This document shows positions 237-29,928 of a DNA stretch of 34,288 bases, in pieces. A program made the position numbers and the translations under genes. Source of the DNA: Gemmatimonadaceae bacterium (lineage in GTDB: Bacteria > Gemmatimonadota > Gemmatimonadetes > Gemmatimonadales > Gemmatimonadaceae); the NCBI GenBank assembly GCA_035533015.1, contig DATLUQ010000023.1:1-34288 (forward strand), given 5' to 3'. The notes beneath the pieces are model-generated. The model had not been told where the DNA came from, did no database searches, and saw only the letters and a list, made by a program, of their open reading frames with translations. Each line of letters opens with the position of its first letter. Positions within the stretch are counted from its first letter, which is position 1.

Positions 237-270
237 ACAAACGTGCTCCAAGCGGCTGGAGCACGTTTGT
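237..270 (-). terminator. Perfect 14-bp hairpin downstream of tRNA-Leu
   Basis: Two perfectly complementary 14-base arms (237-250 and 257-270) enclose the 6-base loop agcggc. Each outer end is ACAAACG/CGTTTGT, so the 3' arm ends in TTTGT on either strand. The hairpin begins 34 bases beyond the 3' end of the minus-strand tRNA, where a transcript end is expected. No uninterrupted T-run follows, so it is either an atypical terminator or a 3'-end stabilising stem. Confidence 0.55.
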
Positions 271-26000: not shown

Positions 26001-26984
26001 TCAGCGGGCCACGTCCGACGCGTACGCCCGAATGATCTGCCGCACCAGGCGGTGTCGCACCACGTCGTTCTCGTCGAAGTACTGGAAGGCGATGCCCTCG
26101 ATGCCGGCGAGGATCCGCTCCACCTGCAGCAGGCCGGACTCCTCGCGCTTCGGCAGATCCACCTGCGTCTTATCGCCGGTGATCACGACTTTGGAGTTCA
26201 CGCCCAGCCGGGTCAGAAACATCTTCATCTGCATCGAAGTCGCGTTCTGTGCCTCGTCGAGGATCACGAACGCGTCGGCCAGCGTGCGCCCGCGCATGAA
26301 CGCCAGCGGCGCGATCTCGATGACCCGCGTCTCCAGTGCCTTCTGCACGCGGTCGAACGGCATCATCTCGTCCAGCGCGTCGTACAACGGCCGCAGATAC
26401 GGATCGACCTTGGCCTGCATATCGCCGGGCAGGAACCCGAGCGATTCGCCCGCCTCCACCGCCGGCCGCGCGAGCACGATGCGCCGCACCCGCTTGCGGG
26501 TGAGCGCGTCCACGGCGGCCGCCACCGCAAGGTATGTCTTGCCGGTGCCCGCGGGCCCGATGCCGACCACGATGTCCTGCTCGGCGATCTTGGCCAAGTA
26601 CTCGGCCTGCCCTGGCGTCTTGGCCTGCACGAGCTTGCGGACGCCGGGCAGCGCGATGTGCGGCGCGGACGGCGGAGCGCCGTTCGCCGAGCCTTCCGCC
26701 TGTTCGGCCACGTCCTCGGGCGCCAGTTCCGATAGGCGCAGCACGTCGTCGGCCGACAGGGTGAGCCGCTGCCGTGCCACGTCCACCATGCGCTGGCCCA
26801 CGGGCGCTGCGCGCGCCACCAGCTCCTCCGGTCCGGTGATCGACAGGGCCTCGCCCCGCAGCGCGACGCGAACGCCGAACAGCCGCGACAGCTCCACCAG
26901 GTTCACGTCGTTGACGCCGGCCAGCGTGAGGAGGTCGGCGCCCTCGGTGGAGATGCGGCGGGTGGTGGCCGCGGAATCCGTCAT
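26001..26984 (-). CDS. PhoH-family ATPase
   Basis: A 327-residue PhoH/PhoL protein. An N-terminal KH-like region (about 20-75) precedes the ATPase domain. Walker A is GPAGTGKT at 143-150; ARPAVEAGESLGFLPGDM is the family signature, Walker B is FVILDEAQN (239-247), and ITGDKTQVDLP follows. The family is connected to RNA processing and is regularly beside ybeY. Its ATG overlaps the aspS stop by 4 bases. Length is normal, with a short acidic/Ala-rich linker (about 90-110) between domains. Confidence 0.95.
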   Translation of the reverse strand: MTDSAATTRRISTEGADLLTLAGVNDVNLVELSRLFGVRVALRGEALSITGPEELVARAAPVGQRMVDVARQRLTLSADDVLRLSELAPEDVAEQAEGSANGAPPSAPHIALPGVRKLVQAKTPGQAEYLAKIAEQDIVVGIGPAGTGKTYLAVAAAVDALTRKRVRRIVLARPAVEAGESLGFLPGDMQAKVDPYLRPLYDALDEMMPFDRVQKALETRVIEIAPLAFMRGRTLADAFVILDEAQNATSMQMKMFLTRLGVNSKVVITGDKTQVDLPKREESGLLQVERILAGIEGIAFQYFDENDVVRHRLVRQIIRAYASDVAR

Positions 26985-28783
26985 GGGGTGCGCCCTCCGG
27001 CGCCGCCCCCACCGGTCACCGCGATGTGGAGGTCGCGCAGTTCCTCGGGCGGCACCGGCGCCGGCGCGCCCTCGAACAGCGCACGGGCCGCGGTGGTCTT
27101 CGGAAAGGCGATCACATCACGCAGTGAATTCGCGCCGGCCAGCATCATCGCAATACGGTCCATGCCGAGCGCGATGCCGCCATGCGGCGGCGCGCCGGCG
27201 CGCAGCCCTTCGAGCAGGAACCCGAACCGCGCCTGCGCCGTGGCCTCGTCGATCCCGAGCAGCGAGAACACGCGGCTCTGTAGCGCCGGGTCGGCGATGC
27301 GGATGCTCCCACCGCCCAGTTCCGTGCCGTTGAACACCACGTCGTACGCTGCGGCACGCACGGTTTCGGGCGCCGTGTCGAGCTTGGGCACGTCCTCGGC
27401 GCGCGGCGCGGTGAACGGGTGGTGCACGGATGCCAGCTGCCCGGTGGCGGGGTCGCGATCGAACATCGGGAAGTCCGTCACCCACAGAAACGCGTGCGCG
27501 TCCGCGGGCACGAGCCCGAGCCGGTGGGCAACATTCTGCCGCACGCGGTCGAGCGCCGGATTGGCCACGCGATCGTGCGCCGCCACGTAGAGCCCCAGTG
27601 CGCCCTCGACCAGTTGCAGCCGTTCAGCGGCTCCCTCGGCGAGGAACTTCGCGGCCGGCCCTTCGAGCTTGCCATTGACGCGCTTGAGCCGCAGGAGCCC
27701 CATGGCGCCGGCGGACCTGGCTTCGGCTTCCACCTCGTCGAGCTGCTTGCGCGACAGCGCGGCGCCGCCCGGCACCACGAGCCCCCGTACCCGGCCCCCC
27801 TCGGCGAGCGCCGAACGCGTGATGCCGAATTCCGTGCCGCGGAATACGTCGCTCACGTCGGCGATCTCCAGGCCGTACCGGAGGTCGGGGCGGTCGCAGC
27901 CGTAGCGCTCCATGGCGTCGGTGTAGGTCATGCGCGGGAACGGCGTCGACACGGCGTAGCCGGCTTCGGCCCACAGCGCGGCGACCATCCCCTCGGTGAG
28001 GGCGACGATGTCCTCGACGCCGATGAACGATGCCTCGATGTCGATCTGCGTGAACTCCGGCTGGCGGTCGGCCCGCAGATCCTCGTCGCGGAAGCACCGG
28101 GCCACCTGGAAGTACCGGTCGTATCCCGCGACCATTAGCAATTGTTTATAAATCTGCGGCGACTGCGGCAGCGCGTAGAACTCGCCCTCGTGGATCCGGC
28201 TGGGCACGAGGTAGTCCCGCGCCCCTTCGGGCGTGGGTTTGGTGAGAATCGGCGTCTCGATCTCGAGAAATCCGCGGTCGCTCAGGTACCGGCGAGTGGC
28301 CTGCGTGAGCCGGTGCCGCAGCACCAGATTCTGCTGCAGCTCGGCGCGCCGCAAATCGAGGTACCGGTGGCGAAGGCGGAGATCCTCGGCCGGCAGGTTC
28401 TCACCCTTGGCGCGGGCCACCGGAATGGCGGGCACCGCCGCCGGGCCCACCACGGTGAGTGACGTGACGTGCACCTCCACCTCGCCCGTGGCGAGATCGG
28501 CGTTGTGCATCGTGGCCGGTCGCCGCACCACCTCGCCTTCCATGAGGACCACCGTCTCGTTGCCGAGCCCGGCGGCACGGTCGCACACGTCCTTGGGCGT
28601 GCGCTGTGGGTCGAACGAGGTCTGGACGATGCCGCTCAGATCGCGCAGATCCACGAACACCAGGCCGCCGAGGTTGCGGGCGCGGTGCACCCAGCCGCCC
28701 AGACGGACACGTTGCCCCACGTGGGTCGCCCGCAGGCTCCCGCAGCGGTGGGTCCTCAGAGTTGTCGAGAAGTCGGTTTGCAT
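26981..28783 (-). CDS. aspS: Aspartyl-tRNA synthetase
   Basis: A 600-residue bacterial-type class IIb synthetase. The OB-fold anticodon-binding domain is 15-115 (GWVHRARNLGGLVFVDLRD). Motif 1 is GFLEIETP at 171-178 and motif 2 is FRDEDLRADRQPEFTQIDIE at 231-250. The bacterial insertion (GAD) domain covers about 300-420, and motif 3 is GIALGMDRI near 536-544. At position 38 it has Leu, as in E. coli, where nondiscriminating enzymes often have His; this hints at strict tRNA-Asp charging, but one residue is not proof. It heads the 14-gene run. Its upstream region (28784-28976) carries two strong hairpins with a shared loop sequence, reported separately. No Shine-Dalgarno sequence is evident. Confidence 0.98.
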   Translation of the reverse strand: MQTDFSTTLRTHRCGSLRATHVGQRVRLGGWVHRARNLGGLVFVDLRDLSGIVQTSFDPQRTPKDVCDRAAGLGNETVVLMEGEVVRRPATMHNADLATGEVEVHVTSLTVVGPAAVPAIPVARAKGENLPAEDLRLRHRYLDLRRAELQQNLVLRHRLTQATRRYLSDRGFLEIETPILTKPTPEGARDYLVPSRIHEGEFYALPQSPQIYKQLLMVAGYDRYFQVARCFRDEDLRADRQPEFTQIDIEASFIGVEDIVALTEGMVAALWAEAGYAVSTPFPRMTYTDAMERYGCDRPDLRYGLEIADVSDVFRGTEFGITRSALAEGGRVRGLVVPGGAALSRKQLDEVEAEARSAGAMGLLRLKRVNGKLEGPAAKFLAEGAAERLQLVEGALGLYVAAHDRVANPALDRVRQNVAHRLGLVPADAHAFLWVTDFPMFDRDPATGQLASVHHPFTAPRAEDVPKLDTAPETVRAAAYDVVFNGTELGGGSIRIADPALQSRVFSLLGIDEATAQARFGFLLEGLRAGAPPHGGIALGMDRIAMMLAGANSLRDVIAFPKTTAARALFEGAPAPVPPEELRDLHIAVTGGGGAGGRTP

Positions 28784-28838
28784 TGATGAGTGAGCAATGG
28801 GCGGCCGGTCAACGCGGCCCGAAGCGGCGTGAGACGCT

Positions 28839-28918
28839 GGCGCCGGGCGGCCTCATCGGCTTGCCCGGCGCCGGGGGCAGAACGCGCCAACCGACCCGGA
28901 GATCATCGGCCGGGTCGG
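28839..28918 (-). promoter_or_regulatory. Twin hairpins in the presumed aspS leader
   Basis: Two perfect inverted repeats lie upstream of aspS. Going 5'->3' on the minus strand, the first is CCGACCCGG/CCGGGTCGG (28918-28910 with 28899-28891, 10-base loop). The second is GGCGCCGGGC/GCCCGGCGCC (28872-28863 with 28848-28839, 14-base loop). Both display GCCGATGA at the loop. Divergent genes flank the region, so a terminator is not expected. A possible -10 box TATGAT (28976-28971) would put the hairpins inside a leader of about 180 nt, but no matching -35 box was found. Confidence 0.45.
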
Positions 28919-28998
28919 CGCTGAAAGGCGGCTGCCGGAATTCGTCTCATCCAACCCTGTATCATAATGCCGGAACGCGACTTAGGGTAGTTCATCGC

Positions 28999-29028
28999 TT
29001 GACTCAGCGCGGCGGGCCCGGCTAGGTT
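28999..29028 (+). promoter_or_regulatory. Promoter of the outer-membrane protein/rlmN operon (leaderless type)
   Basis: A -35 box TTGACT (28999-29004) and a -10 box TAGGTT (29023-29028) are 18 bases apart. Six bases separate the -10 box from the ATG at 29035, placing the predicted transcript start on the start codon. Confidence 0.65.
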
Positions 29029-29034
29029 AAGTGC

Positions 29035-29928
29035 ATGCGCCACTTGCTTTTTGCCGCGCTCATCTGCGGCGTCATGGCAACGCCGTCGAGCGCCCAGCAA
29101 GTCCCGGCGCGCGATCTGCTCGACTTCCCAATCGGTTCCATTGCGGAACCGGCCGCAATCTCCTCCTTGCTCTCGAGCGGGGTGTGGAACCCAGCGGCCG
29201 TGCGCCTCCCGACGGGCGAGGCTGTGCAGATCGGCATCCTGGCGCTCAACTCTCCCATCGAACAGGGAGTCTCGGCCCAACTCGCCGTGGCCACGATGAG
29301 GCTCCCGGGTTCCACGCTCCTCACGGCCTCCCTGCTCCGCGCCACGGTAACCGACCTCGTGCGCACGCAGACCGATCCGCAAAGCGTGGGTTCGGAGATT
29401 CCGTACGGCACAACGCTGTTCTCGGCAGGATTGTCACGCCGCGTCGGCCGACTCACCGCGGGATTCGCCACGCGCGTGCGCACGGGTACGGCCGACTACA
29501 TTCAGCGCACTTCGCTCTCGCTCGACGGCGGGGTGCTGCTGGATAGCGCCTTCCACACCCCGATCCGGCTCGCCGCTTCCACGTTCCTGCTCGGTGCCTC
29601 GCCGACGCGGGAGCGAGCGACACTGCTGGGCGCGGTCGAGGTGCCGGTGTACCATCGCGGATCGGCGCTCGAAGTGCGCAGCGGGCTCGCGGTCTCGGCC
29701 ACCGAGTATCGGGGTAACGAGAAGTATCTGTACGCGGCGTTGCGGTATCTCGGGCTCGAGGCGCGCGGTGGACTGGCCCGCACGCGGGCCTTCGGCTTCG
29801 ACTCCGATCATCTGCGCCTGGGACTCGATCTGCACTACGCCCGATACGTCGTGGGAATCGCCCGCGAGGATGAGGGGGCCGGCCTGGGCGCCGTCTATCA
29901 ATTCATGCTGACGTCGGCATTCCCATGA
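29035..29928 (+). CDS. Outer-membrane beta-barrel-like protein
   Basis: A 297-residue protein with a signal peptide (1-21, cleavage near SSA-QQ). The mature region is a series of amphipathic strands with alternating hydrophobic residues (for example QLAVATMRLPG, TAGFATRVRTG, IRLAASTFLLG, LRYLGLEARGGLARTRAFG, LRLGLDLHYARYVVGIARE). The ending GAVYQFMLTSAFP is close to a barrel end strand, though the last residue is Pro, not Phe. No enzymatic motif is visible. The layout resembles PorV/UPF0164-type or other lineage-specific outer-membrane proteins, but the family is not identified. It is preceded by a promoter that leaves no leader, and its last 4 bases overlap rlmN. Confidence 0.7.
   Translation: MRHLLFAALICGVMATPSSAQQVPARDLLDFPIGSIAEPAAISSLLSSGVWNPAAVRLPTGEAVQIGILALNSPIEQGVSAQLAVATMRLPGSTLLTASLLRATVTDLVRTQTDPQSVGSEIPYGTTLFSAGLSRRVGRLTAGFATRVRTGTADYIQRTSLSLDGGVLLDSAFHTPIRLAASTFLLGASPTRERATLLGAVEVPVYHRGSALEVRSGLAVSATEYRGNEKYLYAALRYLGLEARGGLARTRAFGFDSDHLRLGLDLHYARYVVGIAREDEGAGLGAVYQFMLTSAFP

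Follow-up and report, generated by a model that had tools for sequence, protein, structure and literature searches.

A hairpin of invariant stem sequence in the predicted aspS leader of a Gemmatimonadaceae genus, a candidate attenuator

We propose, at somewhat less than an even chance, that a GC-rich hairpin (hairpin A) ahead of aspS, the gene of aspartyl-tRNA synthetase (AspRS), in a Gemmatimonadaceae bacterium is a terminator-like attenuator in the leader of that gene, and perhaps one that is sensitive to the translation of an upstream ORF. The proposal is based on the sequence itself, on the site of the hairpin downstream of a promoter-like motif, on the invariance of its stem within the genus and on its likeness to hairpins that follow stable RNA genes; the start site, the termination, the translation of the upstream ORF and the regulation are all predicted from these.

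The window, by which we mean the whole stretch of 34,288 nucleotides that was analysed, corresponds to contig C23 of a draft genome (G000) that totals 3.03 Mb in 66 contigs, and the features of interest lie between aspS and a divergent gene (Table 1), an arrangement shared by the genus and by several members of the family. The genus comparison comprised four species (G000, G001, G002, and G003), with AspRS of G000 being 83-86% identical to that of the other three. The family comparison used 66 chosen loci in which the start of aspS is covered, representing 64 distinct stretches (PR004 duplicates G014 and nzgw228 duplicates G102), three of which are shorter than 930 nt. This set excludes loci from other phyla, copies of aspS broken by contig ends, L041 (a repeat of G002), L044 (a repeat of G042), and genomes lacking an aspS locus match, a group that takes in almost all of the order's other families.

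Table 1. Positions of features around the start of aspS, in window coordinates.
Feature	Position	Strand	Remarks
aspS, aspartyl-tRNA synthetase	26981..28783	-	Pfam PF00152, PF01336, PF02938
Weak hairpin C, just upstream of aspS	28799..28820	-	z -0.83 in G000
Hairpin B	28839..28872	-	10-bp stem GGCGCCGGGC/GCCCGGCGCC, arms 28839-28848 and 28863-28872; 14-nt loop with second GCCGATGA; in G000 only of the four species
Hairpin A tail	28881..28890	-	TTGGCGCGTT in G000, TTTGTGCGTC or TTTGCGCGTT in relatives; 7 of 10 columns invariant
Hairpin A	28891..28918	-	CCGACCCGG / loop CCGATGATCT / CCGGGTCGG; arms 28891-28899 and 28910-28918, perfect 9 bp, 10-nt loop; stem invariant in four of four species, loop variable
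Possible upstream ORF	28903..28950	-	15 codons, MRRIPAAAFQRRPGR; start codon 10 nt after the -10 box
aspS promoter-like motif	28961..28990	-	CTACC (28990-28986), 19 nt, TATGAT (28966-28961); family motif
Promoter-like motif of divergent gene	28999..29028	+	TTGACT-N18-TAGGTT; read from the sequence, below the scan threshold
Divergent gene	29035..29928	+	297-aa ORF; no Pfam match at E 0.001

The promoter-like motif of aspS is shared across much of the family and its spacing is nearly fixed. Among the 66 upstream stretches the pattern CTACC-N19-TANNNT has 33 matches at a spacing of 19, and the other spacings from 12 to 26 give 0 or 1 each, except for 5 at a spacing of 25. With the spacing allowed to vary from 18 to 20, the motif is present in 34 of the 66 stretches (32 of the 64 distinct ones) versus one of 66 for the reversed pattern, counts that overstate the number of separate cases since related genomes are not independent; G015 is detected solely with the relaxed form CTA[CG]C. 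The motif adjoins aspS in some genomes and elsewhere lies several hundred bases upstream with another reading frame in between. Throughout the G000 genome there are 13 matches versus 32 of the reversed pattern, and hence CTACC-N19-TANNNT is no general promoter in this organism. Of five other sites that were examined in G000, one precedes tRNA-Val and one precedes an ORF with a phosphoribosyltransferase domain (Pfam). From the motif we infer that aspS transcription starts at about 28953-28955, and with a start near 28954 both hairpins A and B would be within a leader of about 170 nt. As far as the sequence tells, then, transcription does not begin downstream of 28839, and the hairpins probably lie in transcribed aspS leader RNA, as the preliminary description of this region had supposed. 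It had also argued that terminators are not expected here as both flanking genes are transcribed away from the region, an argument that fails because attenuators are terminators inside leaders.

What sets hairpin A apart is the conservation of its stem. The arms CCGACCCGG/CCGGGTCGG occur at the corresponding place in G001, G002, and G003, enclosing the loops CCCAGGATCG, CCCAACATCGC, and CCCAGGCTTT, and the spacer between the arms is 10, 10, 10, and 11 nt in the four species. In the four-way alignment both arms are invariant (9/9 and 9/9 columns), while the loop is so in 4 of 11. Invariant columns make up 24 of 30 in the promoter, 10 of 13 from the -10 box to the start of the upstream ORF, 8 of 29 from there to the stem, and 11 of the 101 between the hairpin A tail and aspS. 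The stem (18/18) differs from the last of these regions with a Fisher p of 4e-14 and from the upstream-ORF stretch with a p of 4e-7, both to be read with the caveat that alignment columns are not independent. Recent divergence as the source of the fixed stem is rejected since the adjoining leader has diverged. None of the nine pairs varies among the four species and there is no evidence of covariation, so that the conservation proves a constraint on sequence and not on pairing. The view that a selected element lies ahead of aspS is borne out for this one hairpin, given its strong conservation among the four species.

Each of the four genus genomes has a single exact copy of the stem pattern, in the aspS leader, so it is not a multicopy, REP-like element there. 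It is present in 10 of 149 genomes, the remaining six being G007, G089, G090, G096, G134, and G147, and in the first four of these six it is on a contig other than that of aspS. Near-matches with up to 3 mismatches compared with a reversed control number 19/17 in G000, 19/13 in G002, and 25/19 in G003, and a regulon or dispersed repeat was rejected on these near-control values, with the exception of G001. The latter genome has 50 near-matches versus 22 in the control, more than the other three. A single exact site per genome, together with near-copies in G000 that scarcely outnumber the control, implies that hairpin A acts in cis or by way of a dedicated factor. Elsewhere in G000 the unit TCCTACCC is repeated 4.6 times in a short tandem array (L195 1022-1058; G000:C11 near 124 kb).

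The dedicated factor might be a protein that binds the inverted repeat, either AspRS bound to the RNA for autoregulation or a repressor bound to the DNA immediately after the promoter. In four species the sequence of both arms is fixed beyond what complementarity demands, a lone exact site per genome suits a dedicated regulator, and the excess of near-matches in G001 points the same way, but we regard this as unlikely in view of the variable spacer, which is awkward for a rigid DNA dimer, of near-match counts that barely exceed the control in the other three genomes, and of loops that lack the tRNA-Asp anticodon. Synthetase autoregulation by tRNA mimicry is of the type known for E. coli thrS, and the anticodon of tRNA-Asp is GUC; neither GUC nor GTC is found in the hairpin A loop of any of the four species or in the loop of hairpin B, and anticodon mimicry for AspRS is therefore not seen. 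The reported absence of T-box features holds up in searches of Rfam, which at gathering score gave no family match in the window except a tRNA. A permissive scan restricted to 28760-29040 yielded cow-rumen-1 (E 0.53) as its sole hit, and no T-box up to an E of 1.

How much hairpin A resembles a terminator is best judged against other hairpins of the genus. Its U tract is short and is weakest in G000, with T counts in the 9-nt tail of 3 in G000, 5 in G003, 4 in G002, and 5 in G001, and a strict terminator scan found none. A stable GC-rich hairpin lies between aspS and the start placed by the motif. Directly 3′ of tRNA-Leu (in G000, G002, and G003) and of tmRNA (in G003 and G001) there are GC-rich hairpins (..GAGCACGTTTGGCG, ..CCGTCCGCGTTTGGCC, ..GGCGCCGTCGGCGTTTCGG) with two to three T in the 9 nt past the full stem, and hairpin A has no fewer. 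These hairpins and that of tRNA-Val in G000 combine strong stems with short T tracts, for example GTTTGG, ATCTTTCA, CGTTTGG, and CGTTTCGG, and from their location we take the stable-RNA hairpins of the genus to be probable terminators, a style that hairpin A with its TTTGTGCG matches. The position of the T tract is different, however, being inside the stem in the tRNA-Leu and tRNA-Val hairpins (TTTG pairs with CAAA in that of tRNA-Leu) and outside it in hairpin A. The only hairpin found downstream of tRNA-Thr in G003 is 78 nt away and is not clearly a terminator, and the hairpin behind tRNA-Leu(CAA) (window 237-270, L192, and L189) has T tracts on both strands. Stem sequences differ between species in the tmRNA hairpins (G003 and G001) and in those of the L27 gene (G000 and G003; L27 by Pfam). 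The stem of the tRNA-Leu hairpin is nearly fixed across three species, and a fixed stem in hairpin A is thus compatible with a terminator. A strictly fixed stem does exceed what a bare terminator needs, which suggests that the sequence is also read by something else.

Folding predictions favor a stable hairpin A in isolation. The energies are -19.7 (G000), -19.2 (G003), -19.9 (G002), and -22.3 (G001) kcal/mol with z values of -2.2 to -3.9, and in G003 a shifted register narrowly wins. In minimum-energy folds of the leader together with the start of the gene, hairpin A is present in G000, G001, and G002 and absent in G003, and of two 150-nt folds computed for G000 one has hairpin A and the other pairs the 3′ arm elsewhere. 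These mixed folds count against the attenuator reading, as do the z values of the 100-nt leader, which are 0.09 in G000, -2.03 in G003, -2.46 in G002, and -1.32 in G001. No antiterminator partner appears in the consensus fold of the four sequences, which are too few to exclude one. At the place of hairpin C there are 7-bp perfect stems of unlike sequence in G003 (L002) and G002 (L003), about 36 nt ahead of aspS and each with the TGA stop of the upstream ORF in its loop; as a conserved element hairpin C was rejected, being found in those two sequences alone, weak in G000 and not seen in G001. Outside of the genus, G042 and G015 (g13) as well as G043 and G104 (g14) have predicted leader hairpins at a comparable distance, dissimilar in sequence and with stems that differ from hairpin A; those of G043 and G104 lack a T tract. 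Such hairpins would suit a passive 5′ structure that protects the mRNA or pauses the polymerase without terminating transcription or sensing a signal, a reading we consider rather unlikely as it leaves the fixed stem sequence and mostly fixed tail of the genus unexplained.

The leader also contains the possible upstream ORF. In G000 its TGA stop sits in the loop of hairpin A and in G001, G002, and G003 the frame passes through the hairpin. Across the family, 19 of the 34 promoter rows have an ATG within 14 nt of the -10 box, at a distance of 6-13 nt, where about 0.13 per row would be expected. Of the 21 promoters no more than 340 nt from aspS, 16 have this ATG, and the five that lack it are G121 and four g22 members. 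G016 (L006) is among the 16, and its ATG is the aspS start itself: aspS looks leaderless there, with its ATG 6 nt after the -10 box and with the upstream ORF and hairpins missing. The encoded peptides are not conserved and long frames are expected by chance at such a GC content. Asp codons number 0 in G000, 2 in G003, 3 in G001, and 0 in G002, and 2, 4, and 5 in three g14 members. A conserved leader peptide was rejected because the sequence differs between species and the Asp codons are not conserved, and the genus has no Asp-rich upstream ORF of the kind used in amino-acid leader-peptide attenuators. In g13 the leaders of G042 (L010) and G015 (L029) open with the similar mini-ORFs MRTLRTRE and MRTLHTR, the stops of which, judged by eye, overlap or abut a second ATG whose frame crosses the leader hairpin. 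In g14 (G043, L007; G104, L153; G122, L151) a GAAGC..GCTTC stem with a variable loop, also judged by eye, comes soon after the start of the upstream ORF.

On the attenuator reading, RNA polymerase would start near 28954 and about 35 nt further on would enter the 9-bp GC hairpin A, followed by its short U-rich tail. A fraction of the transcripts would terminate near 28880-28888 as a leader RNA of about 70 nt, and the remainder would read on through aspS and the genes that follow it. By opening hairpin A, a translating ribosome could allow transcription to proceed, which would tie aspS expression to translation capacity; such gating is proposed because in all four species the upstream ORF would begin at the 5′ end or close to it and extends as far as hairpin A. 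In the fullest form of this idea, which we hold to be decidedly doubtful, a 5′-end ORF initiated in leaderless fashion runs into a sequence-fixed terminator, such that aspS would be transcribed only when ribosomes competent for leaderless initiation are available, whatever the peptide, and the family would keep the layout of promoter, 5′-terminal AUG, hairpin, and aspS while freely varying the hairpin and the upstream ORF.

The same ribosome might instead act on initiation. The 3′ arm and tail of hairpin A (GGUCGGUUUG) could have two alternative pairing partners, the 5′ arm and the aspS start (CAAACCGACC), and initiation would be blocked when an upstream-ORF ribosome occupies the 5′ arm. The contiguous Watson-Crick complementarity to the start is 7 nt in G000, 10 in G003, 5 in G002, and 6 in G001, and is equalled among random 20-mers of the window in 0.8%, 0 of 3000, 10%, and 1.9% of cases, respectively. 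By duplex energy against in-phase windows of aspS, however, G003 alone stands out (0/582), with ordinary values in G000 (114/582), G002 (99/582), and G001 (143/582), and the start of G002 has changed without compensation. Sequestration of the start codon by the 3′ arm, striking in G003 alone, was rejected, and we view the switch as a whole as very unlikely.

The preliminary description had a different emphasis, namely two hairpins on unlike stems that present one octamer, GCCGATGA, at their loops as a recognition signal for a protein or an RNA. The 9- and 10-bp stems on the sense strand of aspS are confirmed. Perfect stems of at least 9 bp are common at the 69% GC of the window, which has 14 (with loops of 3-20 nt) versus 4-11 in 10 first-order Markov simulations, and two of them within the 251-nt intergenic stretch are unusual (4 of 2000 simulations). 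The octamer is present at both loops as described but is partly paired in each hairpin: hairpin A uses the G of the octamer as the final base of its stem, and in hairpin B the GCC of the octamer makes three more pairs and leaves GATGA unpaired. An 8-mer common to random 12-nt and 16-nt pieces of the window arises in 1168 of 400000 trials, or about 0.3% per pair of loops, which together with the double occurrence in the leader speaks for recognition of the word. Against it, the window genome contains 241 + 222 copies (463 in total; the reversed control gives 64 + 47), and in the 250 nt upstream of aspS in G001, G002, and G003 there is neither a copy of the octamer nor a matching stem of at least 6 bp in place of hairpin B, with G002 and G003 having other stems of 6-7 bp near that position. 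The relatives therefore display the reverse of a constant loop on unlike stems, as stem A is the same, its loop differs and hairpin B is absent, and of the conservation that the recognition idea predicts only that of stem A is seen. Recognition of a constant loop was rejected for this reason and is, in our estimate, extremely unlikely. The sharing of the octamer is most likely a coincidence, and neither it nor hairpin B plays a conserved part.

Comparable arrangements are known elsewhere. Premature terminators, or attenuators, ahead of genes are described with hisS discussed as a synthetase case (PMC2965389), and the aspS leader shares with them a terminator-like hairpin between promoter and synthetase gene and a short leader ORF; unlike them, no sensing domain, antiterminator or run of cognate codons was found in it, and termination here is a prediction. 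The attenuator passages of PMC2965389 drawn on here make no mention of aspartyl. In Shewanella a motif in the aspS 5′-UTR, termed a 'tRNA synthetase leader' (PMC2659441), is likewise a predicted cis-regulatory RNA ahead of aspS, in a phylum different from Gemmatimonadota. The ilvBNC operon of Corynebacterium has an upstream-ORF attenuator (PMC10272879) and so also a short ORF ahead of the gene, but in the aspS leader the peptide is not conserved and contains no Asp codon in G000. For leaderless genes, TANNNT is reported to precede the start codon by about 12 bp (PMC3160421), and the aspS upstream ORF resembles that layout in starting 9-13 nt after TANNNT, with 6 nt for aspS of G016; the PMC3160421 text drawn on here does not contain 'Gemmatimona'. 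At the level of search results, literature searches returned nothing on an aspS leader in Gemmatimonadota, and the phylum name was in no result of a search for its regulatory signals.

If the attenuator reading is true, Gemmatimonadota would have cis-acting control of a synthetase gene that operates without a T-box. The aspS promoter motif, with its fixed spacing of 19 nt, is of use on its own for locating transcription starts in the Gemmatimonadaceae.
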